Assembly: GCA_019637315.1 (NCBI GenBank)
Contig: JAHBVU010000017.1
Location: 1-64,000, forward strand
Length of the DNA stretch: 64,000 nucleotides
From: Gemmatimonadales bacterium
GTDB lineage: Bacteria > Gemmatimonadota > Gemmatimonadetes > Gemmatimonadales > GWC2-71-9
Direction: 5' to 3'
Positions 3,496 through 21,899 of this stretch are shown here, piece by piece; the stretch's first letter is position 1, and each line of letters starts with the position of its first letter. The notes under the pieces are model-generated. The model saw only the letters and a list, made by a program, of their open reading frames with translations. It did no database searches and was not told the DNA's origin. Made by a program: the position numbers and the translations under genes.

Positions 3496-3594
3496 GTCTG
3501 TTCCTCCGCCTTGGCCCGAATCCCAGCCGCAACGCGAGGCGGGAAGCTAGCAATCCATGCCGAAGAGGAACAGGCCGCCGCTGCCGAGGCGGGC

Positions 3595-4509
3595 TTACCC
3601 CTCGCCGAGCGGGGCGGCGTGACTCGGCGGCGGGTTTCCCGGAGGGGGTGGCGGCTGCATCAGGATGGTCCGCTGCGCGGCCGGAATCTGAATGCCCTCG
3701 GCGTCCAGCCGCAGTTTGAGACGGCGCGAGAACTCGCGGAAGGCCGGCCCCTGCTGCCCCGGAATCGTTCGAATCAGCGTGCGAATCACGACGCCATTGT
3801 CGCCAAAACGATCGATGCCCACCACCTCCGAACCGCCATCAAAGCGGGCCTTCCAAGCCGGATCAACCTGAAACTTGACCAGCTCGTCCCGGACCACCGC
3901 CAAGGCGTGATCGACGTCGGTGCCATAGCTGACCGGGACGTCGACCACGGCTCGTGACCAGCCTCGGCTGGTGTTGACGACCCAGGGAATCGAACCATTC
4001 GGAATGATATGGAGGGCTCCGTGCAAATCTCGGATCCGAACGGCCCGCAGCGAGACCTGCTCGACGGTGCCGCTGTGCTCGCCGATGCGCACTCCGTCGC
4101 CGACGACGAACTGATTCTCGAGCAGGATGAAGAAGCCGGAGATCAGATCCTTGACGAGGCTCTGCGCACCGAACGACACCGCAAGGCTGAGAATCCCGAC
4201 GCCCGCCAGGAGGGGTCGGATATCGATAAAGAGGTTGAGGCTCGACAAGAAGACGGCCAGGATGATGACCGCTCGCCCGACACTGCGGACCAGCTGGGCA
4301 ATGGTCTGCCCGCGCTTCTCCCCGGCTGACAGCACGGTTGGGTCGCCATCGTCGGCCGCGAGCTCGATCCGACGGGCCACCAGGCGCACCAGGCCGGAGC
4401 CGGCCCAGCCGAGCAGCAGCAGCACCGCGAGTTGCAGGACCTTGCGGACCATATGGCCCCGCTCAGTCCCGAGCAGATCGGCAAGCCAGTCAATTGCAGT
4501 AAGGTCCAT
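3595..4509 (-). CDS. MscS-family mechanosensitive ion channel
   Basis: Small-conductance mechanosensitive channel that releases osmolytes on hypo-osmotic shock, in the inner membrane. About 304 residues. Hydrophobic segments lie near residues 20-45 and 75-110. The pore-lining region with GVGILSLAVSFGAQSLVKDLISGFF is diagnostic of the MscS pore helix and is followed by the beta domain (FVVGDGVRIGEHSGTVEQVSLRAVRIR) and the IPNGS motif. The C-terminus is proline-rich. I use the ATG at 4509; an upstream in-frame TTG at 4518 is possible, and neither has a clear Shine-Dalgarno. It follows the universal stress protein gene in the same direction, but a terminator lies between them. Confidence 0.9.
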   Translation of the reverse strand: MDLTAIDWLADLLGTERGHMVRKVLQLAVLLLLGWAGSGLVRLVARRIELAADDGDPTVLSAGEKRGQTIAQLVRSVGRAVIILAVFLSSLNLFIDIRPLLAGVGILSLAVSFGAQSLVKDLISGFFILLENQFVVGDGVRIGEHSGTVEQVSLRAVRIRDLHGALHIIPNGSIPWVVNTSRGWSRAVVDVPVSYGTDVDHALAVVRDELVKFQVDPAWKARFDGGSEVVGIDRFGDNGVVIRTLIRTIPGQQGPAFREFSRRLKLRLDAEGIQIPAAQRTILMQPPPPPGNPPPSHAAPLGEG

Positions 4510-4555
4510 GATGCCCAAAGCTTAGGGGCGACCGGCTCGATCGTCAAAATGGCAA

Positions 4556-4587
4556 AGGGGTGCCGTTGCTGCTGCCACGGCACCCCT
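4556..4587 (-). terminator. Intrinsic terminator after the universal stress protein gene
   Basis: Stem AGGGGTGCCGT/ACGGCACCCCT (11 bp, 10-nt loop) read on the minus strand and followed by TTTGCCATTTT. It lies between the USP gene stop and the MscS start. Confidence 0.75.
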
Positions 4588-4610
4588 CGGCCCCTGCGTG
4601 CTGCAATGAG

Positions 4611-5531
4611 TCAGCCTTTGTCCTCCGGACGCACGACCAGCACCGGCACGCCGGCGCCTCGAATGATCTCGCCAGCGACGCTCCCGAGAAGCAGTCGGCG
4701 GAAACCGGTGGCGCCCTGGGTAGTCATGGCCACGAAGTCGTAGCCTTCGGCCCTGATTTCATCCAGGATGCTCGGGACCGCCGAGGTACCGATAATGGTC
4801 TTGGTACTGACCCGAAGCCCCTCCCCCCGAAGTCGCTCGGCCACACCCTCCAAGTATCGCTCGGACGCCTGCCGCCGTGCCGTAATTTCCTCATCGGAGA
4901 ACACGATCGGGTACGGTGGCATCGAACCGACCACACCGACGGCGGGCTCATTGACGTGAAGCAGAGTGAGATGAGCCTGGGTTACCAGGGCGAATGGAAT
5001 CAGCGGCGTCAGAATCGCCTCGGAACCTTCGGACTGATCGAGTGGCACCAAACAACGGTCGAAGGGGGCCTGCTCGGGAAGCACCGGCTTGCCGTCCTTG
5101 GGCCGAATCAGAAGCACAGGCGTGGACGTCCGCCGAATCACGTAATCCGCGACGCTGCCGAGCCAGGCACGGGCCAAGGCCCCCCGCCCGTGAGTCGACA
5201 TCACGAAAACGTCGGGGCGGATTCGATCGAGTTCGCGCACCAGCGCCTCACCCGCCACACCGTCGATCAGGCGATAGCTCACGTCCGACCCGCCCACCGT
5301 GCCCAGCGAACGCGCCACAGAGGACAGGTACGCCCGGTCTTCGGCTCGAGCCTGCTCCTCATCCGGCACGCCAACCATCGGCGCCCCCTCGATCGGGGTG
5401 AGCGTGGTCGCCTGTTCGTGAACCCTGAGCAGAGTAAGGCCTGCCTTCGCCTCGCGTGCCAGGCGCGCCGCCACGGGCAGCGCCGCTTCAGCGAACAGCG
5501 AGCCATCGAGCGCCACGACCACCGATTTCAT
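4611..5531 (-). CDS. Tandem-domain universal stress protein
   Basis: Cytoplasmic stress protein of the UspA family, about 306 residues made of two Usp domains (roughly 1-145 and 155-306). Each repeats the fold ending STHGRGALARAWLGSVADYVIR..TPVLLIR and TTQGATGFRRLLLGSVAGEIIRGAGVPVLVVR, i.e. the G-2x-G-9x-G-S/T ATP-binding signature. The start is taken at the third ATG (5531), because GGGGGAG is nine bases upstream; the first ATG at 5540 abuts that ribosome site. A second two-domain USP lies 0.3 kb upstream on the same strand. Tandem USPs of this type are typical of redox or hypoxia stress regulons. Confidence 0.9.
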   Translation of the reverse strand: MKSVVVALDGSLFAEAALPVAARLAREAKAGLTLLRVHEQATTLTPIEGAPMVGVPDEEQARAEDRAYLSSVARSLGTVGGSDVSYRLIDGVAGEALVRELDRIRPDVFVMSTHGRGALARAWLGSVADYVIRRTSTPVLLIRPKDGKPVLPEQAPFDRCLVPLDQSEGSEAILTPLIPFALVTQAHLTLLHVNEPAVGVVGSMPPYPIVFSDEEITARRQASERYLEGVAERLRGEGLRVSTKTIIGTSAVPSILDEIRAEGYDFVAMTTQGATGFRRLLLGSVAGEIIRGAGVPVLVVRPEDKG

Positions 5532-5570
5532 CGTCATCATCTCCCCCTTTTCCTGGCCGACGCGTTCAGG

Positions 5571-5786
5571 TCACTGGGAAGGACCAGAGGAACCGCCGGT
5601 TCGACAGGTGTTGATGCGAAACAACGTATACATCGGGCAATTGCCGGTCAGGGCCGTTCCGATGGGGATCAGGCCCAACAGCGTAACGTAGCGCCAGGGC
5701 GGTTCGAGAGCACCGTAGAGCCCGAGAATCAGGATCCCGATGACCAGCCGTAAGCCGCGATCGATCGTGCCAACGTTGCGTACCAT
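5571..5786 (-). CDS. Small membrane protein, DUF2892 (YgaP-like) family
   Basis: 71 residues, MVRNVGTIDRGLRLVIGILI onward, with two hydrophobic segments and the CPMYTLFRINTC end typical of the DUF2892 inner-membrane domain found alone or at the C-terminus of YgaP-type rhodaneses. The ATG at 5786 is preceded by GGAGG ten bases upstream, so longer readings from 5861 are unlikely. It lies between two universal stress protein genes on the same strand, so a shared stress role is plausible. Its precise function is unknown. Confidence 0.82.
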   Translation of the reverse strand: MVRNVGTIDRGLRLVIGILILGLYGALEPPWRYVTLLGLIPIGTALTGNCPMYTLFRINTCRTGGSSGPSQ

Positions 5787-5833
5787 GTGACGATGCCCTC
5801 CAGGCGAAGGATCGGGCAGCTCCGCGCGAGCTG

Positions 5834-6661
5834 CTACAATGGCACCGTGAGTACCGCACACGGTGCGGCCAGCAAAAGACTGCGTGCCGTTTCGGTCGGT
5901 TCCACGACCTTGGGCGGCCCTCCCCGACGATAGCCGATGACGAGCACACCTGCCTCGGCCGCGCAGACTTCCTCCAGAATCTCGACGGCAGGACTGCCGG
6001 TACGCAGTGAGACTTGGATGGCGGGTGGCGTGCCGGCCATGCCTGCCGCGGAGGCCGCCACCGCGACGGACCGCCGGGTCGCGCCGGCACCGTTCTGCGT
6101 CACCGTGACGCCGACGAGGGGGAGGTCGATTTCCCGGCTCCAGCGGAGGGCCAGATCGAGCACCTGGTGCGAACGCGGTGTCTCGTCGAGCGCCACCAGG
6201 CCACGACGGAAGGGCCAGCTCCCCTTCGGGACCGAGAGGACCGGAATGCCGGCCCGCCGTACCACGGCATCCGCGGTCTCACCGAGGGACGCAGGTTGCC
6301 GGCCGGCTCGATCGCGACGGCCCAGCACAATCAATGAAGCCCGGTGCCGATCCCCGAAGCGGCTGATCTCGATACCCGGAACGCCCTGTGCAATCCACGA
6401 CGTCGCGCTTCGGGGTTGTCGTTCGAGCCAGCCCGCCAACGCGCCCGGGCTCGACCCCCCTGGCGCAGCCGAGGGAGCGAACTGGTCGACGCGCAGGATG
6501 GCCAGGGGCGCGGCATGCTCCCCTCGGAGCCGTGAGGCCACCTCGGTCGCATAGCGACCCTCCTCCGAATCATCGCTGGCCACCAGGATTCTGTCTCCGA
6601 GCACCTGCTCCTCGCCGTGCGGTCGAAGGCCAAGGTAGACGCCGAACCGTGAAGAATTCAT
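5834..6661 (-). CDS. Second tandem-domain universal stress protein
   Basis: About 275 residues with two divergent Usp-like halves. The N-terminal part (ILVASDDSEEGRYATEVASRL) ends in ASLIVLGRRDRAGRQ...GIPVLSVPKG; the C-terminal part starts GLVALDETPRSHQVLDLALRW and ends VVEPTETARSLLLAAPCAVLTVP. The ATP-binding glycine motif is weaker than in the protein at 4611. The start at 6661 has no clear Shine-Dalgarno, so a start slightly further in is possible. The gene is divergent from the GAF kinase operon, with only about 75 bp between them, suggesting shared control. Confidence 0.8.
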   Translation of the reverse strand: MNSSRFGVYLGLRPHGEEQVLGDRILVASDDSEEGRYATEVASRLRGEHAAPLAILRVDQFAPSAAPGGSSPGALAGWLERQPRSATSWIAQGVPGIEISRFGDRHRASLIVLGRRDRAGRQPASLGETADAVVRRAGIPVLSVPKGSWPFRRGLVALDETPRSHQVLDLALRWSREIDLPLVGVTVTQNGAGATRRSVAVAASAAGMAGTPPAIQVSLRTGSPAVEILEEVCAAEAGVLVIGYRRGGPPKVVEPTETARSLLLAAPCAVLTVPL

Positions 6662-6736
6662 GAATGCAGAACGAGGGCTGGCCCATTCGAAGTTGCCTGG
6701 GGTGGTTCCGTCTGTCGAGACGGCCGCCGATAACTT

Positions 6737-7981
6737 ATGATAGAAGCCATGGCTCCAAGCAACGACCCCAGCGATCGTATCGAGCAGCTGGTCCGGGCCA
6801 CGCCGGAGCTGGTGGGTGAGCTCAGCCTCGAGACCGCGCTGCCCCGGATCGCGGAGCTGGCGCGCAGCCTGCTCGAGGCCAAGTACGCGGCGGTTGGCCT
6901 GCTTAACCCGGACCACCGTACTCTCAAATCGTTCACGACGGCCGGGCTCACCGACGACGAACGCGCCCGAATCGGAACGCCCCCCATCGGTCACGGTGTC
7001 CTCGGTCTGGTAATCCGCGAGGGCCAGGTGATTCGCCTGCCCGACCTGCAACGTCATCCTGCCGCAGTCGGCTTCCCGCCCAACCATCCGCCGATGCACT
7101 CGTTCCTGGGAGTACCGATCGTCGGCCGAGCCGGCATCGTCGGCGACCTATACCTGACGGAAAAGCAGGGCGCCGCCGAATTCAGCGACGAGGACGTCCA
7201 CATTGCCCTGTTGCTGGCCTCGATCGTGGCCTCCGCCGTCGAGAACGCCCAGCTGCATGAGCGGACCATCCGGCTCCTCGAAGAAGTGCAGCAACTGCAT
7301 AGGAGCCGCGAGCGCTTCTTCGCGATGATCAATCACGAGCTGCGCAATGCTCTCGCTGCGGTGTACGGATGGGCCGAGCTGATGGTGAGGAAGAAGGATC
7401 CCGCGGCCGTTCCGCGCGGATCGATCGAAATTCTCGAGGCCGCGGAACACGCGGTTGCGCTGATCAATGACCTGCTCGATCTCAACCGGCTCGATGAGGA
7501 TCGTCTCAAGCCGATCATCCGGGATGTCGACTGTGCCGCCCTGGTGCGCTCGGCCCTGCAGCGAGTGACCCCGGTTGCCGACGAGCGGCAGGTTTCACTC
7601 GTCGGTCTCGACCCGGGCACCGCGGTGCTGTGCCGCACCGATGCCCACCGCGTCGAACAGATCTTCGTCAACGTGCTCAGCAACGCCGTCCGCTACGCAC
7701 CGAATGGCACCCGCGTGACGGTAACCGCGGCGATCAGTGGCAGTGTCGTCGAGTTCGAAGTGTTGGACCAGGGCCCTGGCGTGCCGGCCGACCAGACGGA
7801 GCATATCTTTGATATCTATTACCGTGCGGGCGCGATGGACGGCTCCGACCCCGGCCATGGAGTCGGCCTGGCGCTGTCGCGCCGGCTGGCACGGCTGCTC
7901 GGCGGCGACCTCTGGGCCATACCGCAAAGCGGCGGCCGGTTTGTCCTGCGGTTGCCGGGCGTACCCGGCACGCACCCTTAG
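6737..7981 (+). CDS. GAF-domain sensor histidine kinase with a DosS/DevS-like GAF
   Basis: Soluble sensor kinase, 414 residues (or 410 from the ATG at 6749). The GAF domain (about 25-170) contains RHPAAVGFPPNHPPM followed by SFLGVPI and LYLTEK. This closely recalls the heme-binding GAF-A of mycobacterial DosS/DosT, where a His in this region ligates heme. Then come a dimerisation/phospho-acceptor helix with MINHELRNAL (H200) and an ATPase domain with N-box NVLSNAVRYAPNG, G1 DQGPGVP and G2 GHGVGLAL. The kinase core is HisKA type, not the HisKA_3 type of DosS. It is followed by an OmpR-type regulator and a metal ATPase. An O2/NO/CO sensing role is inferred from the GAF resemblance only. Confidence 0.87.
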   Translation: MIEAMAPSNDPSDRIEQLVRATPELVGELSLETALPRIAELARSLLEAKYAAVGLLNPDHRTLKSFTTAGLTDDERARIGTPPIGHGVLGLVIREGQVIRLPDLQRHPAAVGFPPNHPPMHSFLGVPIVGRAGIVGDLYLTEKQGAAEFSDEDVHIALLLASIVASAVENAQLHERTIRLLEEVQQLHRSRERFFAMINHELRNALAAVYGWAELMVRKKDPAAVPRGSIEILEAAEHAVALINDLLDLNRLDEDRLKPIIRDVDCAALVRSALQRVTPVADERQVSLVGLDPGTAVLCRTDAHRVEQIFVNVLSNAVRYAPNGTRVTVTAAISGSVVEFEVLDQGPGVPADQTEHIFDIYYRAGAMDGSDPGHGVGLALSRRLARLLGGDLWAIPQSGGRFVLRLPGVPGTHP

Positions 7982-10561: not shown

Positions 10562-13012
10562 TCAGCGCTGCGCGGCTACTGCGTCCTCCCGGGGTCGCAG
10601 CGCCAGGACAACCTGCCCCACTGACCGGGTGTCAGTTCCTGCTCCGGCTGCCAGCTCAAACGTTACCGGATCCGCCATCACACCGAGGGCTGCAGCGACC
10701 GCGCCTTCGATTGAAAGGCGATAGCGGCCGGGCCGAAGTCCCATCTGATAGAAGGAGCCATCCGAGAAGGGTTCGATCCGCATTCGCTGACCCGACGCCT
10801 CGTGTTCGAGTTGCATCCCGATCCGGCCCACCAGTGTGCCTGCCTCCCCGCTCCACTCGAGTCGCCCTTCGAGGATGGCACCAGCCACAATCGGGATCTC
10901 GACGCTGACGATCTCACCCGGCCGCGGCACGACCGCCAGCCGGGCACGATCGGGAATCCACTGAGGGTCGGCCAGGCTCGCGCTGTCGACGGTCAGATGA
11001 ATCGGCTCGAAGGGCTGGACGCCCCACAATTCAAACCGCCCGGAACGATCGGTGACCAGCGCTCGGCCCGCCGTGAACAGTCGGGTGTCGGGCAGCAGCG
11101 GCTCGTCCGCGCTCCGGGTACCGTTGCCGTCGAGATCGAGGAAGACAACACCCGCCACGCCGGCCCGATCGATCGCCGGCTCCGCCGACCACATGACTCG
11201 CCCTCCCTTCCGGTCCCAGACAGCCGACCCACCGGCAACCTGATCCATCCGGCCCGAGCTTCCCGGATCGGCAATACCGCGCACCGCATAGCGCAGCTGG
11301 GACAGCTGGGTCACCAGCCCGAGCGAAAAGGCCGGGCCGTTGCGGCCCCGCTCCCAGATCACCATCGATTCCAGGCGCCCGAGGGAGCCGAGCCCGGTCA
11401 TGGCCGCGAGACTCGACCGGCGAAGTTGCCCGTCCATGTTTGACTCGGCCTCGGCGCGGAGCCAGAGCCGGCGCAGCAGCGCCGGCCACCCCGCAGCGGG
11501 CAGGATCGTTCCCTCGAGACCGAAGGCCGATTGCTCCCCACCGAGCGAGCCCCAACTCAGCCGAACGAATGGCCGCACGTGAACCTGTGATAGCGGCATC
11601 GCCAGAGCCGCCCGGACCGTAGTTGTCGCTCCGGAATCACCCAGGGCGCGACTGACCATGCCTTCGGCCCCGACCGTGCCGCGCCCTCGCGAGCCGATCC
11701 GCCCGTGAAGTCGCCACTCGCGGCGGACGCCGGTACCTCCGGCGTAGTCCAGCAGGTCAAGCGTAAGCGCGCGATGCAGACTCGGCTCATACCGGGCGGC
11801 CGCTCGGGTGACCAGACCCGTCAGATGCTCGAGGTCGAAGCCAAGCGCGTTGAATGGCGCAGCGGTCAGGGTCCCGTAGGGGCGCCATGCCATGGCTGTA
11901 TCATCCGCCCGGATCGTGAGGCCGGCACGAGCGGACAGCCGCGAGGTTACGCCAACGGCAAGATCCGCGTTGCCCAGCCAACGGCAGGGCATCTCACGGC
12001 ACGCCCCTACCGCCATACTGTACTCGGTCGCTCCGCTCCGGAGCAGCATGGGCACGGCGCGGAAGCTCTGGTTGAGCTCCCGAATTTCGCCGTTGGGTCC
12101 GTAGGCGACGAGGTCGATCGGATTCTCGCCATAGTGCACCGGCACCATGATGCGATAGCGGCCGCCGGATCCGGCTGAATCAAAGCCGATCAGGCGGCCG
12201 GAGCGGTAGGCATCGACGCTCCAACCCGGCGGCAGGGTCCCGGAAAACGGCAGTGCCTCGAGCAGCAGCGGCCGGAAGGGTGGGCGGTTCGTCAGCGAGA
12301 AGCCGCGCACCCGCTCGGTCCGCACGCTTTGGGTCGCCACATCCCCGACCCGGAGACCGGTCAGCCAGCGACTCTGGGGCCAGGTCCGGTGCCACTCGAG
12401 GTCGACTGATCCGTCACTTCCGCTGATGCCGCGTAACCGACTGACGGCCACCCCACCCAGCAGTGCGCTGGCCAGGCCGACTCGATAGGTCGTATGGTCA
12501 AGCGGGGTGCGGCCCGTGGTGTGAACGTCGTAGTCCATCGCGACACCGCTCCACCCGGAACGCTCGGTTGCGAACGCCGCCGGCGGAATGCTGGCCGAGT
12601 CACGCAATCGTTCCCGGGCGGCGGCGCGAAGGATGCGTCGTACGACGGGCAGGTCGGCAGATGGTGCCACCCGCACCAGCGCCTGCGACTCGTCGTAGAT
12701 CAGCACGGTCTTGAGGACCCGGCCCAGTTCGTCGAGCGAGCGATAGCCGTCGGGCGGACGAGGCACTTCGAGGAGCTGGAATACCGGGGCAATCGGAAGG
12801 TACAGTGTATCTCGGACCTGTCGCGCCTCGATCGTCGTGGCGGCCACGGTGCCGAGGCGAACTTCGACCAGGACAGGGTCACCAGGCGGGGCGGCCTCGA
12901 CCGCTCCAAGCACAGGGGCCGGCAACGGGATCGGACCCGCGGGCCGACACGCCAGACACAGAACGAATGGGGCCACCCGCCGCCACGCTGCGTACCGACC
13001 AGGCATCCCCAT
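10562..13012 (-). CDS. Fimbrial-usher-like outer-membrane protein with a C-terminal SdrD-B-like domain
   Basis: 816 residues. An N-terminal export signal with a Cys-containing hydrophobic stretch is followed by a domain of about 150 residues and then usher-like barrel sequence. PFSGTLPPGWSVDAYRSGRLI closely recalls the conserved PapC/FimD segment in which an 'LPPG-W-v-ly-nG-li' motif precedes the plug. Near residue 640 GVVFLDLDGNGTRSADEPLLP is a calcium-binding SdrD B-like repeat, and further beta domains follow. It is last in an operon with two DUF4402-type subunits and a chaperone, which supports a pilus or surface-fibre export role. The usher assignment is moderate because the barrel is divergent. 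Confidence 0.72.
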   Translation of the reverse strand: MGMPGRYAAWRRVAPFVLCLACRPAGPIPLPAPVLGAVEAAPPGDPVLVEVRLGTVAATTIEARQVRDTLYLPIAPVFQLLEVPRPPDGYRSLDELGRVLKTVLIYDESQALVRVAPSADLPVVRRILRAAARERLRDSASIPPAAFATERSGWSGVAMDYDVHTTGRTPLDHTTYRVGLASALLGGVAVSRLRGISGSDGSVDLEWHRTWPQSRWLTGLRVGDVATQSVRTERVRGFSLTNRPPFRPLLLEALPFSGTLPPGWSVDAYRSGRLIGFDSAGSGGRYRIMVPVHYGENPIDLVAYGPNGEIRELNQSFRAVPMLLRSGATEYSMAVGACREMPCRWLGNADLAVGVTSRLSARAGLTIRADDTAMAWRPYGTLTAAPFNALGFDLEHLTGLVTRAAARYEPSLHRALTLDLLDYAGGTGVRREWRLHGRIGSRGRGTVGAEGMVSRALGDSGATTTVRAALAMPLSQVHVRPFVRLSWGSLGGEQSAFGLEGTILPAAGWPALLRRLWLRAEAESNMDGQLRRSSLAAMTGLGSLGRLESMVIWERGRNGPAFSLGLVTQLSQLRYAVRGIADPGSSGRMDQVAGGSAVWDRKGGRVMWSAEPAIDRAGVAGVVFLDLDGNGTRSADEPLLPDTRLFTAGRALVTDRSGRFELWGVQPFEPIHLTVDSASLADPQWIPDRARLAVVPRPGEIVSVEIPIVAGAILEGRLEWSGEAGTLVGRIGMQLEHEASGQRMRIEPFSDGSFYQMGLRPGRYRLSIEGAVAAALGVMADPVTFELAAGAGTDTRSVGQVVLALRPREDAVAAQR

Positions 13013-13023
13013 TCGGGTTCCCG

Positions 13024-13503
13024 CTAGAGCGTGACGCCGTACACGGTGAGGACCATCGTACCCGTATAGCTGCCGGCCATCTGGCTGAGCGGGGGCGAGA
13101 CTGAGCCACCGAGCCAGACATAGATGTTGGTGCCAAGAGAGATGAGGCCGAGCGAGACCGATCCGTTGGGATTGAAGGTCGTGCCACCCGGCGTGGTGTT
13201 GTTCGCACGATAAAGGCCGCAGGTGGCACAGAACGAAATCGGCATGGTGGCACCGCCGCCGACCCGACTGAGACTGGCAGGCAGCGTGAGGTCGAACGAC
13301 GGGACCAGGGCCAGCAGCGTGAAATGGATCCGCCAGCTGGCGGCACCCGTCTCAGCCGGCCCGACGCTGGTCGTCGTACCCGAGATGATCGAACCAAACT
13401 CGAGATTGGCTCGCTGGGTCACCTGCGCATCGAGGGGGCCCGACGTGGCCAACGCCAAGGCTGCGGCGAGGCACCCGCGACGCGTCCTCGCCGGCACCGT
13501 CAT
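13024..13503 (-). CDS. Secreted DUF4402-type pilin-like subunit (second copy)
   Basis: 159 residues with a signal peptide (MTVPARTRRG...SGPLDA). The mature part, beginning QVTQRANLEFGSIISG and ending AGSYTGTMVLTVYG, has the beta-strand pattern of DUF4402 / spore-coat-U-like subunits. Two cysteines (CATC) may form a disulfide. The ATG overlaps the chaperone stop by four bases (ATGA), so it is translationally coupled. Probably a structural or adhesive subunit donated to the usher. Confidence 0.72.
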   Translation of the reverse strand: MTVPARTRRGCLAAALALATSGPLDAQVTQRANLEFGSIISGTTTSVGPAETGAASWRIHFTLLALVPSFDLTLPASLSRVGGGATMPISFCATCGLYRANNTTPGGTTFNPNGSVSLGLISLGTNIYVWLGGSVSPPLSQMAGSYTGTMVLTVYGVTL

Positions 13504-14324
13504 CGTCGCAGTTCCACGACGCGCCTGACCGGCGCCGTCGGCAGGACGAACGACGTCGGAAGATCATTGCGCCGCCCGACTGCCTCGATCCGGATCAGGT
13601 AGTCCTGATCAGGCAGATCGGCGGCTGGCAGCACGAGACGCGGATGGAGCGTGTGGTACACTCCCAGAGGCAGTTCTGTCTCACGGACGACACGACCGCT
13701 TCGATCTTCAACCGTGGCCCGCAAGGTCCCGACCCAGGCAGCGTTGCCTCGACGGGTGAGCGGCACACGCACCGTGATCGAGTCGGCCCCGCGGACCGCT
13801 GTGGGCTCTCCAAGTTCGAGTGCGGTCGCCACGGTGCCCTTCCGAAAGAGAAACGGAAAGACACTCCGTACCTCCAGCGTGATCGCCACGTTGACGGCCT
13901 CGACAGCGGCAACCGGTGCCACCCGAGGCGTGGCCCGCGAGGCCACGACCAGCCGGGCCCAGTACTCCCGCTCGGGCACGCCGTCCGGCGGGCGTACCAG
14001 GAGGCGCACCGTACGCCGCGCCCCAGGCTCCAGGGCGAAACGACGGGGAAACATCTCGATCCAGTCTGCCGCGGACGGGGTGGAGTCGGTGATTGGCGTT
14101 TTGGTATCGAGCAGGAGGTTTCCGGCGGAATCGGTTACCGGCACGCCATACAGAGTCGACAGATCGACTTCAACCCGATCCTCACCGATGTTGACGACCG
14201 TGAAGGTCCCGGCGCGCTGACCGCGATCGACCACCACCGCCTGCGGTGCGATCAGCACGGCCTGCGCGGCGAGCGTCGCCGGCAACGCGCTGGCAATCAG
14301 AGTGGCGACACCGATACGCCGCAT
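13500..14324 (-). CDS. Periplasmic pilus-assembly chaperone-like protein
   Basis: 274 residues with a signal peptide (MRRIGVATLIASALPATLAAQ). The first domain reads LIAPQAVVVDRGQRAGTFTVVNIG, then IEMFPRRFALEPGARRTVRLLVRPP, which is the PapD-like N-terminal immunoglobulin fold with its G1-type strand. The second domain is beta-rich and ends PTAPVRRVVELRR. The gene lies 3 bp after the first DUF4402 gene and overlaps the second, exactly where a chaperone is expected in a chaperone-usher operon. Confidence 0.8.
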   Translation of the reverse strand: MRRIGVATLIASALPATLAAQAVLIAPQAVVVDRGQRAGTFTVVNIGEDRVEVDLSTLYGVPVTDSAGNLLLDTKTPITDSTPSAADWIEMFPRRFALEPGARRTVRLLVRPPDGVPEREYWARLVVASRATPRVAPVAAVEAVNVAITLEVRSVFPFLFRKGTVATALELGEPTAVRGADSITVRVPLTRRGNAAWVGTLRATVEDRSGRVVRETELPLGVYHTLHPRLVLPAADLPDQDYLIRIEAVGRRNDLPTSFVLPTAPVRRVVELRR

Positions 14325-14327
14325 CGG

Positions 14328-14828
14328 TCAGAAGTACACGACGGTCATCGTCATGGTTCCCGAGTACGTCCCCGCGGCCTGCGACACCGCCGGCTGAGCG
14401 GTTGCGCCAACGAACACATAGAGGAACCCGCCCACCGGAATCGAGGCCGAGGTCGCGGCAGGCGCCGGGGTAAAGTCAGTACCAGACGCCGCCGAGTTGG
14501 CCGTGTTGTGCCGTCCCTGCCAGCTTGCGATCGGCAGATTGTTCGCTCCGCTCGTGATGTTGGCCGGCAGGGCGAATGTGAGATTGATGTTCGCGCTGGC
14601 CTGCCCTTGGACCGTGAACCGTGCGGCACCAGCGTCGGTCACGGCCACGGTTCGGTCCAGCCCAGGAAACACCAGCCCGAAATCGAGATCGGCCGTCGCA
14701 GTCACCGTGATCGGCTGCTGGACGCTGGCTGTGACGTTCGCAACGGCGGAGTTCTGGGCCATGATGCGGTCCGCGCCGCTGACGGTCATGACAAGGGTGA
14801 TCAGCCCGATCCATCGTTTCAGCTGCAC
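14328..14828 (-). CDS. Secreted DUF4402-type pilin-like subunit (first copy)
   Basis: 166 residues, GTG start at 14828 preceded by a strong AGGAGG six bases upstream. Signal peptide MQLKRWIGLITLVMTVSGADRIMAQ; mature part ITVTATADLDFGLVFPG ... ARFTVQGQASANINLTFALP ... AAGTYSGTMTMTVVYF, the DUF4402 pattern. It is the first gene of the four-gene chaperone-usher-like operon and, with the best ribosome site of the four, is likely the major subunit. It is paralogous to the 13024 product. Confidence 0.8.
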   Translation of the reverse strand: MQLKRWIGLITLVMTVSGADRIMAQNSAVANVTASVQQPITVTATADLDFGLVFPGLDRTVAVTDAGAARFTVQGQASANINLTFALPANITSGANNLPIASWQGRHNTANSAASGTDFTPAPAATSASIPVGGFLYVFVGATAQPAVSQAAGTYSGTMTMTVVYF

Positions 14829-15209
14829 GAGTACCTCCTGAGATTGTCCGGAATCACACCGTCCCGATCGCTCGGCAGCGGAGGTGCGGCCACCGCCCCG
14901 TCCGCGTCAGCGCGGGCAGCGCATCACGAACCGTACGCGCAACCGGTGTGCCAGAGCCGCGCGGCTCCGATCGACGCGCACAAAAGGCCCAGCGTTGCCA
15001 GGGCATCCCCCCTCGAATGCGCAGCGAGCACCGGCTTCATCTCGCGGGTCTTGATCGGGTGGCCCGACGCAGCGCGAAGATTGCACGCCGCGCCAGCAAT
15101 TCGCGACAACCGCACTCGCACTTCTTCGTTACGCCTGCATCATCATTTCTTCATCTATGACAGCAGCTTCATGTTTCGTTCATGTAGCGCAGTTCATTTC
15201 GCGTTTCGA
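14829..15209. other. Intergenic region with no supported gene
   Basis: The 5' region of the chaperone-usher operon and the region upstream of the TPR gene. A 65-codon minus-strand frame at 14924-15121 has no ribosome site or recognisable product and is not called. The stretch 15130-15200 is notably AT-richer than its surroundings and carries four TTCAT repeats, at 15150, 15168, 15179 and 15193. Confidence 0.6.
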
Positions 15210-15227
15210 TAGGGCCGAATGGCCCTA
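15210..15227. promoter_or_regulatory. 18-bp inverted repeat, putative operator (copy 1)
   Basis: TAGGGCC-GAAT-GGCCCTA: perfect 7-bp arms around a 4-bp centre, about 120 bp upstream of the TPR gene ATG. It is one of four such sites in the window, with the same GGGnC-N4-GnCCC geometry as the DosR/DevR box. Confidence 0.7.
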
Positions 15228-15347
15228 GTCGCCCCTCGATCTCCGTCAGATGACAGGTGAAGGGCGAGGTCGGCACCCGCATTGCCCGAGTGGCTCTCGA
15301 CGCCTGACGCCCGGCGGTTCCGGAACAGTGCGCACGAGCGAGCGACC

Positions 15348-16397
15348 ATGATTGACCGAATCGACCCGACCGAACCTGCTGCTGCGGCACCGTGGAAAGC
15401 CGAGCCTGCCTCCGTCATGGTGGACGAAGGCCTCAAGCTCGTCGCCGGCGGCCGGTTCGAGCGCGCAGCCGAGCAGTTTGGCCGTGCGGCGGCTAGGGCG
15501 CATCAGGACGGCGACCACGCTGTGGGGGCGGACGCCCTGCGCCGACTCGCCGAGCTCCGCTTCCGAGCCGGGTATCCGGGGGAGGCCCGCAGCCTGGCAG
15601 AGCGGAGTCGGGAGTGCGCCTTCCGCACCAACCGCGCTCGCCTGCAGGTCGAAACCAGCAACACCATCGGCTGCATCCAACTCGAGATGGGCGACCTCGA
15701 GCATGCCAGCGAGACCTTTCTGGGGGCTCTGGCCATCGAGGGGATTCCCGATGATCTCGCCGGCAGGATCGAGCAGAACCTCGGCATCGTCGCCAGCATT
15801 CAGGGCCGTTGGGATGAGGCCGAGGGCCATTACAGCAAGGCCCTGAGCTGTCTGGCCCGCCACAGAGACACGGCGGGATTGGCCATGGTGCATCACAACC
15901 TGGCGATGATTGCCTCGGACCGGGGCAAGGCGGACGTGGCCCATCACCATTTCGGCGAAGGCCTGGCAGCTGCGGAGCGTGCGGGTGACGGACGATTGGC
16001 GGGCCTCTGTCGGCTCAATCGTGCGGAGCTGCTCCACGCGGAGGGGGCTCTCGATCGCGCGCTGGACGATGCGACCGGGGCGTATGCCGTGTTCTTGCAG
16101 ACCGGCACGCTCGTCGACATGGCTGGCGCCTGTCGGATCCTCGGCCGTATCAATGCCTCGCTCAATCGCTATCAGGCGGCCGAGTCGTTCCTCAAGGCCG
16201 CGGTCACAATGGCTGACCGGAGTCAGACACCGCTCACCGATGGCGAGGCACGACGCGAACTGGGAGATCTGCTCGCAGCGACGAGTCGACTGGCCGAAGC
16301 GAAAGCGAGCTATGAAGCCGCCGGATCCGTCTTCGCGCGTTTGAGCGCGTCGCACGACCTGGCCGACGTCGCACGCCGACTCGCGGAGCTCGAATGA
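15348..16397 (+). CDS. TPR-repeat protein, likely regulatory
   Basis: About 349 residues from the ATG at 15348 (an in-frame start at 15282 is possible; neither has a strong ribosome site). Almost the whole chain is tandem TPR helices, e.g. AAEQFGRAAARAHQDGDHAVGADALRRLAELRFRAGYPGEARSLAERS and repeats of the type ..GRWDEAEGHYSKALS.. and ..NRYQAAESFLKAAV... No catalytic or membrane domain is visible, so it is probably a cytoplasmic protein-interaction scaffold. It carries an upstream copy of the 18-bp operator and precedes the regulator gene, so it may belong to the same regulon. Confidence 0.85.
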   Translation: MIDRIDPTEPAAAAPWKAEPASVMVDEGLKLVAGGRFERAAEQFGRAAARAHQDGDHAVGADALRRLAELRFRAGYPGEARSLAERSRECAFRTNRARLQVETSNTIGCIQLEMGDLEHASETFLGALAIEGIPDDLAGRIEQNLGIVASIQGRWDEAEGHYSKALSCLARHRDTAGLAMVHHNLAMIASDRGKADVAHHHFGEGLAAAERAGDGRLAGLCRLNRAELLHAEGALDRALDDATGAYAVFLQTGTLVDMAGACRILGRINASLNRYQAAESFLKAAVTMADRSQTPLTDGEARRELGDLLAATSRLAEAKASYEAAGSVFARLSASHDLADVARRLAELE

Positions 16398-16441
16398 AGG
16401 GTCCCGATGGGCACGGCTTCTAACCACGCATTGAAGCGCAA

Positions 16442-16459
16442 TAGGGCCATTCGGCCCTA
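16442..16459. promoter_or_regulatory. 18-bp inverted repeat, putative operator (copy 2)
   Basis: TAGGGCC-ATTC-GGCCCTA, ending 49 bp before the -35 box at 16509. Sequence and spacing are identical to copy 3 at 17967, which lies in the duplicated promoter. Confidence 0.78.
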
Positions 16460-16508
16460 TTGCAGGAACGCATCACCGATTTCGTGGTTCATCATCGCGC
16501 CTAAACGG

Positions 16509-16536
16509 TTGACACCCATGACGGTTTTCGTACATT
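16509..16536 (+). promoter_or_regulatory. Promoter of the degenerate response regulator gene
   Basis: TTGACA (16509-16514), 16-bp spacer, TACATT (16531-16536). The same elements (TTGACT-N16-TACATT) are preserved in the duplicated copy at 18034, which supports function. The operator is centred near -92 relative to the predicted start. Confidence 0.7.
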
Positions 16537-16607
16537 CCGATTCACCCTCGCCAAGTGCCCTGCGCATCGAGCCACGCACGATTCACTCGAGGCGAAAGGC
16601 CGTTATC

Positions 16608-17342
16608 ATGAAGCTGCTCCTCGCTGAATCGAACCTGCCCATGATGGCGGGGCTCACCCATGAGTTGAGCGACGGCGGGTACATCGTCGACGTTGCCCGG
16701 AGCCACCGCGACATCACCAGCCTGGTAGAGCAGGCGGATTATGATGTCGTGATGATCGACGCCGACCTCGAGCACGGCACCGGGGTCGACGCCATCCGAG
16801 GATTGCGCCGCGAGGGCTGCACCGCTCCAATTCTCCTGTTTGCGCCGCCGGATGCACACGAAGCGATTGTGGCGGGGCTCGAAGCCGGAGCGGACGACTA
16901 CCTGACCAAGCCGTTTCGGATTGACGAGCTGCTGGCGCGGGTGCGCGCCTTGCAGCGGCGCCACAGCTCCGATCGACTCGACACGCTGCTGCTCGGACCG
17001 CTGAAGGTCGATCGCTTGCGCCATCGCGTCACCGCACACGGCCTCGAACTGTCCTTGACCCCGCTCGAGTTCAGGATGCTGGAGTACTTCATGCTTCATC
17101 CTGGTCATGTGATTCGCCGGAGCCGCCTGATCGAGCAGGTCTGGCAGCAGCAGGGCGATCCGGGAAGCAATGTCGTCGACGTTCAGGTCAGCAAGTTGCG
17201 CCGAAAGCTCAGGAGCATCGTTGCCAACCCGCACATCGAAACGGTCCGAGGCGTCGGGTACAGCCTTCGGCTCGACGCGGACCCACGCGTGTCGAGCGTC
17301 CCGGGAGGCTCGCTGTCGTCAAACCGTCCCATCCCGCGCTGA
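16608..17342 (+). CDS. OmpR-family response regulator with a degenerate receiver
   Basis: 244 residues starting MKLLLAESNL, with GAGGCGAAAGG upstream of the ATG at 16608. Phospho-acceptor D51 (MIDADL) and K101 (LTKPF) remain, but the acidic pair normally following strand 1 is reduced (LLLAESN instead of LLVEDD), and the switch Thr/Ser is Ala79 (LLFAPPDA). The winged-helix DNA-binding domain is intact (GNVVDVQ-type segment, ETVRGVGYSLRLD). It is paralogous to the regulator at 8018. It is followed by a kinase pseudogene, so its own adjacent kinase partner is lost; the intact kinase at 18287 is the likely partner. Phosphorylation may be weak or dispensable. Confidence 0.92.
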   Translation: MKLLLAESNLPMMAGLTHELSDGGYIVDVARSHRDITSLVEQADYDVVMIDADLEHGTGVDAIRGLRREGCTAPILLFAPPDAHEAIVAGLEAGADDYLTKPFRIDELLARVRALQRRHSSDRLDTLLLGPLKVDRLRHRVTAHGLELSLTPLEFRMLEYFMLHPGHVIRRSRLIEQVWQQQGDPGSNVVDVQVSKLRRKLRSIVANPHIETVRGVGYSLRLDADPRVSSVPGGSLSSNRPIPR

Positions 17343-17389
17343 GGGCGCCGGCCTCGGGAGGCGCCCTCGAATCTCGGCCTGGCCGAGCC

Positions 17390-17945
17390 GATACCATCTC
17401 ATTGAGGAGCTCCTCGACGCGGTGATGGAAGCCGCGCAAATGGGGACGGTGGTTGCGTTACATTCCCGATAACCGGATGCACTGGGGAGGGCACGCGACG
17501 GAGCTGCTCGCCGGTCATGAGGCGATTACTGACCTGGATCAGGTCGCCGAGACGATCCACGTCGATGATCGGAACCGGCTCTCACCACGATCGATGCATC
17601 GCGCCTCTCCGGACGACCGCTCTCGCTCGACATTCGCATCGTCCGACCGGGCGGTGAGGTACACTGGGATGCAATCTGGGGTCGCCATTTCCGTGACGAC
17701 GCAGGCGTTGCGGTCCGGTCGGTTGACGTCTTTCGCGACGTCACCGACCAGCGGCTGCTCGAGCAGCAGCTGGCTCACACCAACCGGGTCGAGGCCATCG
17801 GTCACGTCGCAGCCGGGATCGCTCATGAGATCAACACCCCGACGCAGTAGGGCGGCGACAACCTGCGCTTCCTCGAGGAAAGCTGTTCTCCACCTCGCCG
17901 CGTTCATCAGCGAGCAGACGGCGCCGACTCGGGGGCCCTGCTCTA
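17390..17945 (+). pseudogene. Remnant of a PAS histidine kinase (duplicate of 18287)
   Basis: Translating across two frameshifts (about 17445 and 17585) gives a sequence clearly matching the first ~190 residues of the kinase at 18287: ELLDAVMEAAQ, then WGGHATELLAGHEAITDLDQ, then IVRPGGEVHWDAIWGR and VFRDVTDQRLLEQQL. Next is the H-box GHVAAGIAHEINTPTQ, which runs into an in-frame TAG (17848-17850) where the intact copy has TAC. Homology fades near 17940; the ATPase domain is absent. It sits just after the regulator gene, where a cognate kinase is expected. Confidence 0.9.
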
Positions 17946-17966
17946 ACCCAACCTGTACCGTTCGAC

Positions 17967-17984
17967 TAGGGCCATTCGGCCCTA
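17967..17984. promoter_or_regulatory. 18-bp inverted repeat, putative operator (copy 3)
   Basis: TAGGGCC-ATTC-GGCCCTA, identical to copy 2 and again exactly 49 bp before a -35 box. It belongs to the duplicated promoter that now drives the intact PAS kinase operon. Confidence 0.78.
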
Positions 17985-18033
17985 TTGCACGAACGCATCA
18001 CCCTCAAAGGGATCGTTTTCGCGCACGGGCCCG

Positions 18034-18061
18034 TTGACTCCCCTGCTCGTTGTCGTACATT
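18034..18061 (+). promoter_or_regulatory. Duplicated promoter upstream of the signalling operon
   Basis: TTGACT (18034-18039), 16-bp spacer, TACATT (18056-18061); the same layout as the promoter at 16509. It is the likely promoter of the six-gene kinase/regulator operon starting at 18287. Confidence 0.65.
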
Positions 18062-18131
18062 GCGGCGAGATCGCAGGCAGTCTCTGCGCATCAAGTATGA
18101 CATTACCCGTTCGAGGCAAACCGCGGTCGCT

Positions 18132-18225
18132 ATGAAGCTTTTGCCTGCCGAATCGAGGCTTCCGCCCCCGTGTCGCGTGTTGCGACCGGGTCACGCTCAA
18201 TCTTGTCCTGACCGAGCCGATACTA
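18132..18225 (+). pseudogene. Remnant of the response regulator gene (duplicate of 16608)
   Basis: Starts ATGAAGCTTTTGCCTGCCGAATC, coding MKLLPAESRLP, which matches MKLLLAESNLP of the intact regulator. Almost all of the gene body is then deleted. The sequence rejoins homology with the downstream flank of copy 1 (CTGACCGAGCCGATAC against CTGGCCGAGCCGATAC). Only the gene ends remain. Confidence 0.8.
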
Positions 18226-18286
18226 ATACCGATCCCGCCGGGTCCGGCGGGCTCCGATCCGCGCCGCACCCGGAATCGAGCGAGGT

Positions 18287-19573
18287 ATGATCGTGGCCGA
18301 TACGGCCCTTGCACATCAGAAGACTTCAGCGCCGGCTGCGGCCGTCCCTGACACCGCGACGGCCATCGCGCACGAGGAACTCCTCCGTGCGGCGATGGAA
18401 GCTGCGCAGCTCGGCATGTGGTATCGCCTCACGGGAGTGGACCGACTGCTCTGGGGGGGACATGCGGCTGATCTCCTTGCGGGGCATGGCGAGGTCACCG
18501 ACCTCCATCAGGCTGCCGAGTTGATCCACGCCGATGACCGGAAGCGTTTCCTGGACACGATTGACGCCGCTCGTCGCTCGGGCAAGCCGTTTTCCCTCGA
18601 CGTCCGGGCAGTCCGGCCCGGGGGCGAGATCCGCTGGGTCGCCATCTGGGGGCGGCTCATCCACGACGAGGCGGGCGCCGAAGTCCGGTCCGTCGGCGTC
18701 TTTCGTGACATTACCGACCAGCGTCTGCTGGAGCATCAGCTGACCCAGTCTCATCGGGTCGAAGCCATCGGCCACCTTGCTGCCGGCATTGCCCACGAGA
18801 TCAATACCCCGACGCAGTACGCCGGCGACAACCTCCGCTTTCTGGCGGAGGGATTCCGCCGCCTGATGGCGTTCGTGAACGAGCAGACGGATGTGCTCGA
18901 GCGCGCCGGAATCGATCCGGCGGAGGCCGAGCGCCTGCGGCGAATCAGCGACGCGATCGACCTCCCCTTCCTCACCGCTGAGATTCCTCGTGCGATCCAG
19001 CAGGCGCGAGACGGGGTGCGCCGGGTCGGCGAGATCGTGAGCGGCGTGAAGAGTTTTGCCCATCCGGGATCCGGCGAACGGGAGGCCACCGACCTGAACG
19101 AACTCATCACCGCCACGCTTGCCCTGTCGCGCAACGAGTGGAAGTATGTCGCCACCATGGATACCGACCTCGACCCGGAGCTGCCGCCGGTTGCCTGCCT
19201 CCGGAGCGAGGTACAACAGGCAGTGCTGAACCTCGTCATCAACGCCGCCCACGCCGTGGCCGACGCGCGACCTAATGGCACCGGCGACGAGCGGGGCCGG
19301 ATCACGGTCCGGACTCGGGTGGTCGACTCGGACGTCGAGATCTCGGTCAGCGACACCGGCCCTGGCATTCCCGACGCCATCAAGCCGCGAATCTTCGACC
19401 TGTTCTTTACCACCAAGAAAGTCGGCCGGGGCACCGGGCAGGGTCTCCCGCTGGTCCACGATGTCGTCGTCAAGAAGCACGGCGGCTCGGTCCGCTTCGA
19501 CACGGTGCTCGGTTGCGGAACGACCTTCTACCTGCGCCTCCCGAGAGCGTGGACGCCGTCGGAGGCATCATGA
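18287..19573 (+). CDS. PAS-domain sensor histidine kinase
   Basis: Soluble kinase, 428 residues. PAS fold about 30-145 (LGMWYRLTGVDRLLWGGHA ... FRDITDQRLLEHQL), H-box GIAHEINTPTQ with H170, an insert of about 70 residues before the ATPase domain, N-box LNLVINAAHAV, G1 DTGPGIPDAIK, F-box LFFTTK and G2 GRGTGQGLPL. This is the HisKA subfamily common in chemosensory-like relays ('AHEINTPTQYAGDN'). Start ATG 18287 with GAGCGAGG upstream. Its stop overlaps the next start (ATGA). It is the intact kinase of a duplicated regulator-kinase unit. Confidence 0.92.
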   Translation: MIVADTALAHQKTSAPAAAVPDTATAIAHEELLRAAMEAAQLGMWYRLTGVDRLLWGGHAADLLAGHGEVTDLHQAAELIHADDRKRFLDTIDAARRSGKPFSLDVRAVRPGGEIRWVAIWGRLIHDEAGAEVRSVGVFRDITDQRLLEHQLTQSHRVEAIGHLAAGIAHEINTPTQYAGDNLRFLAEGFRRLMAFVNEQTDVLERAGIDPAEAERLRRISDAIDLPFLTAEIPRAIQQARDGVRRVGEIVSGVKSFAHPGSGEREATDLNELITATLALSRNEWKYVATMDTDLDPELPPVACLRSEVQQAVLNLVINAAHAVADARPNGTGDERGRITVRTRVVDSDVEISVSDTGPGIPDAIKPRIFDLFFTTKKVGRGTGQGLPLVHDVVVKKHGGSVRFDTVLGCGTTFYLRLPRAWTPSEAS

Positions 19574-20766
19574 GGCGGATCCTCTTCGTCGACGACGAAC
19601 CCCGTATCCTCGAAGGCATGCGCCGAGTGCTGCGCAGCAGACGAGACGAATGGGAGGCAGTCTTCATCAGCAGCCCGACCGATGCGCTCCTCGAGTGCAA
19701 CCGCACACCGTTCGACATCGTGGTCAGCGACATGCGGATGCCCGAAATGGACGGCGCCACCTTCCTTGGCGCAATTGCCGAGCAGTGGCCTGGCACTGTC
19801 CGCCTCGTTCTGACCGGTCAGACCGATGCCCGGAACGCGCTGATGGCCACCCGGGTGGCACACCAGTTCATCGCCAAACCCTGCGAGGCGGCGGCGCTCC
19901 AGGCGGTGCTGGACCGTGCCTGCCTGCTGCGCGACCTGATCACCGATCCGATCCAGGAGGCAATCGTCGGCAGTGCCGAGACGCTCCCGACCGTTCCTGC
20001 CGTGTACCGGCTGCTCACTGAACTCCTGTCCCAGGACGAAGTGACGGTCACGGACGTTGCGGCCGTGGTCGAGCGCGATGCCTCTCTCGCGGCCAAAGTG
20101 CTGCAGCTGGTCAACTCCTCGTTCTTCGGACCTAGCCGTGAAGTGATGAGCATCGAGTGGGCCGTGAGCCTGCTTGGCAGCCGGTTGATCCAGTCGCTCG
20201 CCATGGTGCATGGGGTCTTCCGTTCGATCGAAGAGCTCGCGCTGCCGATTGCGTTCGACCCGAAACGTGAACAAGCCCATGCAATTGCGGTGGGTGCGCT
20301 GGCCCGTCGGCTTGCGCCTGCCCCCGGCGACATGGAGGCGGCCTTCTCGGCCGGCCTGCTGCACGATGTCGGACGCCTCCTGCTCGCCAGCCGCGGTCCG
20401 GATCGCTACGACGCAGTCGTCGAGCATGCCGACGCCCACGGCATTCCCATGCACGAAGCGGAACAAGCCGTGCTCGGCACCACGCACGCCAACCTGGGCG
20501 CGTATGCGCTCGGACTCTGGGGACTGCCGTGGTCGATCATCGGCGCGGCGCGGTTTCACCACGCGCCCGCCCTGGACCCCGACCCAGCCGGGCTCGCAAT
20601 CGTTATCCATGCGGCCGACGTGCTGGTCCGGGAACAAACCTCCGAGGGCCGGGAGGCCCGCCGCCATCCGGCCGAGCTCGACGAGGCGGCCCTCGCGGCC
20701 CGCGGCTTCGGCGATGCCATTCCCCGCTGGCGCGAGCTGGCGGCGGACCTGGTACTCGCACCATGA
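19570..20766 (+). CDS. Response regulator with HDOD output domain
   Basis: 398 residues. Receiver domain 1-118 with D8/D9, acceptor D54 (VVSDMRMPEMDG), switch Thr in VLTGQTD, and Lys in FIAKPC. HDOD domain about 130-330 (LPTVPAVYRLLTELL, DASLAAKVLQLVNSSFFG, FSAGLLHDVGRLLLAS). HDOD domains are non-catalytic relatives of HD phosphohydrolases used in signalling. Translationally coupled to the preceding kinase and the next gene by 4-bp overlaps. A 19-codon-longer reading from 19513 is unlikely because the coupled ATG gives a canonical receiver N-terminus. Confidence 0.93.
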   Translation: MRRILFVDDEPRILEGMRRVLRSRRDEWEAVFISSPTDALLECNRTPFDIVVSDMRMPEMDGATFLGAIAEQWPGTVRLVLTGQTDARNALMATRVAHQFIAKPCEAAALQAVLDRACLLRDLITDPIQEAIVGSAETLPTVPAVYRLLTELLSQDEVTVTDVAAVVERDASLAAKVLQLVNSSFFGPSREVMSIEWAVSLLGSRLIQSLAMVHGVFRSIEELALPIAFDPKREQAHAIAVGALARRLAPAPGDMEAAFSAGLLHDVGRLLLASRGPDRYDAVVEHADAHGIPMHEAEQAVLGTTHANLGAYALGLWGLPWSIIGAARFHHAPALDPDPAGLAIVIHAADVLVREQTSEGREARRHPAELDEAALAARGFGDAIPRWRELAADLVLAP

Positions 20767-21899
20767 CAATCGGCGGACGCCCCCCCATCCTCTTCGTGGA
20801 TGATGACCCGCAGCTGCTGGAAGCGATGAGCAGACTGCTGCATCGGCGCTTCGACGTCACCGGCGCGGCCGACGGCAATCAGGCAATCGCGCTCGCCGCC
20901 GAGCGCCAGTTCACGGTCGTGATTTCCGACTACAGCATGCCGGGCATGAACGGTGTCAGCCTGCTTCGCACCATCCGGACCATGCAGCCGGACGCCGTCC
21001 GGATCCTGCTCACGGGACAAGCGGATCTCTCCGCAGCAATCGACGCAGTCAACGAAGGCAGCATCTTCCGGTTCCTGGAAAAGCCGTGCGCATCCGAGAC
21101 ATTGATCGGTGCGCTCGATGCGGCTTGCATCCAGCACGACCTGGTGGTGGGCGAGCGGGTCTTGCTCGAACGGACCCTGCACGGGAGCGTCGCCGCGCTG
21201 GTCGATATCCTGGCCATCTCGCAGCCGGGCGCGTTCGGGCGGGCCAGTCGAGTCAAGCGGCTCGCTCACGACATCGCGGGAGACCTGGAAGTTCCCAACT
21301 GGTGGGCCGTCGACGTCGCCGCCATGGTCTCTCAGATCGGTACCATCTCGCTGGCCCCTTCTGTGGTCGACAAGCTCTCAACTGGCGCCGGGCTGACCCA
21401 GGAGGAAACCGCAGCGGTCGCCGAAATCCCCCGCGTCGCCGCGCGGATCATTGCCAACATTCCGCGCCTCGATGCGGTGCGCGCCATCCTGCTGGGCATC
21501 GGACGACCGGCCGGATCGAGTACCGATGAGACGCCGCTCGGCGCCCGGCTGCTGACCCTCGCCTTTGCCTTCGACGATTTGCTCACAGCGAGTGTCGAGC
21601 CTGAGGAGGCGGTGCGCCGCCTCACCAGTCACATCGACCGGTACGATCCCGACCTGCTGGCCCGCCTCCACGCGCTCCACCAGCCGCAGCAGGAGGCCCC
21701 GCCGGTCCGGGAGGTCACACTCGACGCGGTGCAGCCGGGCATGATCTTCGTAACCGACGTCCGCACGGCGGACGGCAAACTGCTGATTGCTCGAGGGCAG
21801 GAGGCGACCGAGGGGTTGGTGACGCGCATCAACAACTACTGGGCCGACCTGCCCATCGCCGGTGCTGTCTACGTGACCACGGGCACGGGCCCCGCATGA
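20763..21899 (+). CDS. Response regulator with degenerate HD-GYP-like domain
   Basis: 378 residues. Intact receiver (D13-D15 region, acceptor D56 in VVISDYSMPGMNG, LTGQAD, FLEKPC). The C-terminal part aligns in layout with HD-GYP proteins, but the metal-binding HD is lost: VSQIGTISLAPSVV stands where the family has HDIGKI..P. The HHE and GYP loops are also absent (ILLGIGRPAG). The last ~75 residues have a PilZ-like or RpfG-tail pattern (GMIFVTDVRTADGKLLIARGQ). A cyclic-di-GMP hydrolase activity is therefore unlikely. Coupled by ATGA overlaps on both sides. Confidence 0.85.
   Translation: MTIGGRPPILFVDDDPQLLEAMSRLLHRRFDVTGAADGNQAIALAAERQFTVVISDYSMPGMNGVSLLRTIRTMQPDAVRILLTGQADLSAAIDAVNEGSIFRFLEKPCASETLIGALDAACIQHDLVVGERVLLERTLHGSVAALVDILAISQPGAFGRASRVKRLAHDIAGDLEVPNWWAVDVAAMVSQIGTISLAPSVVDKLSTGAGLTQEETAAVAEIPRVAARIIANIPRLDAVRAILLGIGRPAGSSTDETPLGARLLTLAFAFDDLLTASVEPEEAVRRLTSHIDRYDPDLLARLHALHQPQQEAPPVREVTLDAVQPGMIFVTDVRTADGKLLIARGQEATEGLVTRINNYWADLPIAGAVYVTTGTGPA

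Follow-up and report, generated by a model that had tools for sequence, protein, structure and literature searches.

Tandem duplication and complementary gene loss in a regulator-kinase unit of a Gemmatimonadales bacterium

Our main finding is that a unit made of an operator, a promoter, a response regulator and a sensor kinase was duplicated in tandem, with a period of 1,525 bp, and that each copy then lost a different gene; there is good support for this course of events. The window, that is, the whole stretch analyzed, covers 64,000 nucleotides of a Gemmatimonadales genome (contig JAHBVU010000017.1, positions 1 to 64,000), a draft in 36 contigs; features are on the forward strand unless stated otherwise. 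A broader explanation, which adds to duplication and reciprocal loss that the surviving kinase (HK2) would signal to the RR-HDOD and RR-HD proteins, that the surviving regulator (RR1) would be atypical, and that the operator would be bound by a protein called P0001, is in our judgment probable as a whole.

The duplication and its period had been proposed in a first-pass annotation, and both are confirmed. Comparison of 16430-17966 with 17955-19580 by BLASTN aligned the two copies over two main blocks of significant similarity, one in the kinases (519 nt, 71% identity, E=1e-87) and one in the promoters (199 nt, 66%, E=1e-19), and a repeat search recovered the same blocks in the same register. 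The promoter block, which comprises the operator, the promoter and the first 11 codons of the regulator, lies at 16442-16640 and has its counterpart at 17967-18165, at an offset of 1525. Further downstream, a spacer 3' of the RR1 stop codon (17370-17394) matches 18199-18223 with 22 of 25 positions identical at an offset of 829, so that copy 2 is shorter there by 696 nt. The kinase segment 17404-17926 matches 18374-18895 at an offset of 970/969, which makes copy 1 shorter by 141 nt, the kinase start and the first 29 codons being missing. Control DNA is best preserved at the operator with its tail (16442..16477 and 17967..18002, 36 nt), where 35 of 36 positions are identical, and in the -35/-10 block (16508-16539 in copy 1), where 25 of 32 are; the remaining promoter is about 54% identical, a value derived from a gapped alignment. 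The promoter-like boxes read TTGACA, 16 nt and TACATT in copy 1 (16509..16536), and TTGACT, 16 nt and TACATT at the aligned place in copy 2 (18034..18061), which bears out the proposed conservation of operators, boxes and spacing.

Copy 1 retains an intact regulator and the remains of a kinase, as had been described. RR1 (16608..17342) is an OmpR/PhoB-type response regulator, with a receiver (PF00072) and a Trans_reg_C winged helix (PF00486) above cut-off. Its receiver lacks the full residue set of canonical phosphorylation-controlled receivers: in the alignment, Ser (Ser8) replaces Asp as the second acidic-pocket residue and Ala replaces the switch Thr. Asp51 and Lys101 are retained, so that phosphorylation of RR1 by HK2 would be possible. 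The AES motif of RR1 also occurs in the regulator remnant of copy 2, and the Ser substitution therefore probably predates the duplication. No RR1 ortholog was found among 395 genomes of the phylum, where the best matches, at about 50%, are to generic OmpR-type regulators, and the ancestral order of regulator and kinase is thus not visible in those genomes. The kinase remnant, HK1, had been placed at 17390-17945; its homologous part is 17404-17926, and includes only the PAS and H-box region. HK1 is a pseudogene by homology to an intact gene and by its disabling changes: it has neither a start codon nor an ATPase domain, the whole C-terminal half of the kinase being gone, and carries three single-base indels (about 17447 (+1), 17581 (-1) and 17885 (+1)) and one in-frame TAG near 17848. 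A genome-wide search with HK2 recovered the same region, with five stops in the read-through frame. The single-base indels could be assembly errors, but this is an unlikely account of the missing ATPase half.

In copy 2 it is the regulator that was lost. Its first 11 codons, at the start of a remnant at 18132..18290, are followed by the net 696-nt deletion, which relative to copy 1 removed the regulator from about codon 12 to beyond its stop. The first-pass annotation held that both ends of the regulator survive here (18132-18225); this is correct for the start, but the other end is the spacer that lies 3' of the regulator stop. The remnant now forms an open frame of 52 codons whose stop overlaps the HK2 start (ATGA), and putative translational coupling of this frame to HK2 is possible because of that overlap. 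HK2 itself (18287..19573) is an intact PAS histidine kinase (PF08447), with a HATPase_c domain (PF02518) and, by reading, the H-box HEINTPTQ and N and G boxes; a Pfam search gave no HisKA model match in it.

HK2 is followed by an RR-HDOD gene (19570..20766) and an RR-HD gene (HD_5, 20763..21899), both assigned by Pfam, and this order is conserved far beyond the genus. A scan of GTDB contigs found HK2 homologs in Terriglobia, Nitrospirae, Tectomicrobia, Desulfobacteraceae, Planctomycetota, Holophaga, Spartobacteria and others; in the distant phyla, as in a locus of the same genus (L010), an HDOD-RR gene mostly comes next and an HD-RR gene usually after it. There was no HDOD match behind the kinase in the examined stretch of L034, a short contig, or of L038. 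None of the compared loci has an RR1-like regulator directly upstream of the HK2 homolog; L036 has a weak receiver match (31%) about 1.5 kb upstream, and L034 one (32%) downstream. Nor was an unduplicated unit of RR1 and kinase found in searches with HK2 in 60 relatives, with RR1 in the 395 phylum genomes, and with HK2 in the GTDB contigs. Two further observations concern this gene family. On a Holophaga contig (L035), two family kinases lie in tandem (3886-4920 and 5904-6947) before an RR-HDOD gene, and are not sisters in the tree. In the RR-HD protein encoded here, the metal-binding HD and GYP residues are, by reading, apparently absent, so that it may be catalytically dead.

Since these neighbors are conserved elsewhere, no RR1-like gene stands in front and the RR1 receiver is degenerate, signaling from HK2 to RR-HDOD appears more likely than signaling to RR1. 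This bears on the best surviving alternative, in which RR1 and HK2 represent what is left of a single cognate pair, each now driven by its own copy of an identical promoter, with RR1 possibly binding the operator itself. Such a pair would fit the complementary losses and the conserved operators, as well as the position of three of the four perfect operators of the genome at this cluster; it would also fit that RR1 has no ortholog elsewhere and that the operator reaches its highest frequency in this genome. The coupling of HK2 homologs to RR-HDOD and not to an OmpR-type regulator, and the degenerate receiver, speak against it, as does the fact that congeners carry the operator tied to the P0001 gene and offer as best RR1 matches only the generic regulators. 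We therefore regard a cognate pair as unlikely, and the earlier claim that a co-functional pair was split onto two promoters as doubtful; synteny likewise speaks against the surviving halves jointly performing the ancestral function.

Turning to when the losses occurred, HK1 and HK2 share 68% identity across 172 residues after frame correction and are sisters in the tree with support 1.0, all other homologs found being at most 36% identical over the same columns. In the frame of HK2, the differences amount to 17% at first, 20% at second and 51% at third codon positions, with a dN/dS of 0.16 and a dS of 1.27, close enough to saturation to make the dating coarse. The low dN/dS and the third-position excess indicate that both kinases were functional for most of the time since the duplication; this speaks against the idea that HK1 had been decaying ever since. 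Outgroup-conserved residues are retained at 28 of 40 sites in HK1 and 29 of 40 in HK2. The branch leading to HK1 (0.37) is 3.7 times that leading to HK2 (0.10), and relaxed selection throughout, instead of a late death of HK1, is thus compatible with the data as well. Taken together, the duplication is old, both kinases were long under selection, and relaxed selection and loss of copy 1 came later. The same age has a second possible reading, in which two related regulator-kinase systems were acquired separately and ended up adjacent to each other, this lineage having undergone no tandem duplication: the split is old, as the dS near saturation implies, and neither copy occurs in any close relative. 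Separate acquisition is nevertheless improbable, because the copies share non-coding operator, promoter boxes, spacing and the spacer between regulator and kinase, and because HK1 and HK2 form a group that contains none of the other homologs found.

The candidate operator is an 18-bp inverted repeat, TAGGGCCATTCGGCCCTA, with a 7-4-7 structure. The genome has four perfect copies, and this cluster accounts for three (15210, 16442 and 17967). Copy 3 (15210..15227, reverse strand, exact match) sits between a TPR-repeat protein gene (15348..16397, Pfam) and a divergent DUF4402 fimbria-like cluster. This cluster, at 10562-14828 on the reverse strand, encodes two DUF4402-type proteins, and chaperone- and usher-like ones recognized by reading, without a Pfam match. 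With up to two mismatches, there are about 12 sites in the genome (13 forward/reverse matches), against none for the reversed control; the motif is present a few times in congeners and rare outside the genus. The operator is thus not private to the RR1-HK2 pair. A TGC tail follows the palindrome at 6 of 12 sites of this genome (P about 1e-6, duplicate left out), a value that serves only as a guide, since the tail was picked after inspection. That the palindrome is instead an RNA hairpin, either an intrinsic terminator or a dispersed repeat, has little probability: a 7-4-7 repeat could fold as a stem-loop, and in several cases a stop codon precedes the palindrome by 20-80 bp (that of the TPR gene, the HK1 remnant, the gene ending at 27566 and the gene before P0001), but others lie between divergent genes, where no gene ends (15210, C9:153182 and C18:33507), no T-run follows, loop and TGC tail are conserved across unrelated loci, and four genomes retain the motif ahead of one and the same orthologous gene. 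A search of 14800-20000 gave no Rfam RNA family. The operator core fits a DosR-like pattern; the idea of a DosR-type box with a NarL/LuxR regulator as its binder was dropped, as in a non-exhaustive check only one of the LuxR-type HTH genes listed, that on C18, was near an operator copy, at about 1.3 kb and not directly behind it. That copy (L007, around 3089-6366) lies amid transposase fragments, and the HTH protein has 96 residues.

The orthologous gene in question encodes P0001, a 250-residue protein on contig C23, unlinked to the duplicated unit. Four genomes of the genus have a full-length copy (this one, on C23, and three congeners; L075 to L078), and in each of them the motif precedes the gene by roughly 50-85 bp, with up to four mismatches in the most diverged genome. 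At three of the four loci it leads, by reading, directly into a -35-like TTGC(C/T)G, with TACTCT 16 nt further on. Close P0001 orthologs are restricted to the genus, weaker ones being present in the sister genus and beyond; at a sister-genus locus (L079), the P0001 homolog adjoins a homolog of the TPR gene (37% over 248 aa, tblastn). Two distant homologs are preceded by other sequences: L082 has another 7-4-7 palindrome, ACTCGTATTTGTACGAGT, about 50 bp ahead of the start, and L083 has a related sequence in a comparable position. The pattern looks as though operator and regulator had changed together. As the operator is conserved upstream of P0001 orthologs in four genomes, P0001 is the likeliest candidate for its binding, ahead of RR1; RR1 alone as the explanation of the operator was down-weighted once the motif had been found there. 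We suggest, tentatively and as something short of probable, that P0001 belongs to an undescribed, weakly AraC-like family controlling a genus-restricted regulon, which would comprise its own gene, the TPR/fimbria-like cluster and both halves of the duplication, the latter being co-expressed through this third party and not through one another.

In the history that we favor, an operator, a promoter, an OmpR-type regulator and a PAS kinase, standing ahead of an RR-HDOD/RR-HD operon, were duplicated in tandem in this lineage, and both kinases functioned through most of the time since. Most of the regulator was deleted from copy 2, and the kinase of copy 1 was lost through terminal deletions, frameshifts and a stop. 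This would leave a pair of transcription units that share operator and promoter, one for RR1 and the other for HK2 with RR-HDOD and RR-HD. HK2 would most likely signal to the latter two, and RR1, given its degenerate receiver, would probably act as an atypical regulator under weak or no phospho-control. The shared operator would probably be bound by P0001, uniting RR1, HK2 and the TPR/fimbria-like cluster in one regulon.

Reciprocal loss after tandem duplication, as observed here, is ordinary in kind, and the regulon lead is more interesting than the duplication itself. The locus is nonetheless a clear natural example of paralogous sensor kinases that were both kept for long and then resolved through the loss of different genes of the same unit, with control DNA persisting in both copies. 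It carries the lesson that conserved operators beside a regulator in decay need not be that regulator's own, and the operator itself gives experiments a way into an undescribed regulator family.

Duplication-degeneration-complementation (DDC) is a model of duplicate retention, and the two copies resemble it, or subfunctionalisation, in that their losses are complementary. They differ from it in that whole genes of a two-gene unit were lost, one kinase late, and there is no evidence of functions partitioned before the loss; the first-pass description of a textbook-like case thus holds for the complementary losses, and fails in that two kinases were long kept under selection before one died. P0001 recalls AraC-family regulators in that the C-terminal half of its orthologs is weakly similar to HTH_18 (PF12833, E 0.03-0.08, below the gathering cut-off), but P0001 itself has no PF12833 match, the family stays below every curated cut-off, and an 18-bp inverted-repeat operator is unusual for AraC proteins. 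HK2 and the genes at 19570-20766 and 20763-21899 match gene for gene the HK/RR-HDOD/RR-HD module of Terriglobia, Nitrospirae and others, except that at this locus an operator-bearing promoter and an OmpR-type regulator have been added ahead of it and duplicated. Finally, bacterial two-component systems are known to duplicate, for example in the alphaproteobacteria, where one such duplication was studied by ancestral reconstruction (eLife 2022, PMC9208753). The likeness lies in paralogous kinase-regulator units that arose by duplication, both kinases being long maintained. The difference is that here the two copies end up without different genes, and that the conserved partners of the kinase that survives are other proteins.
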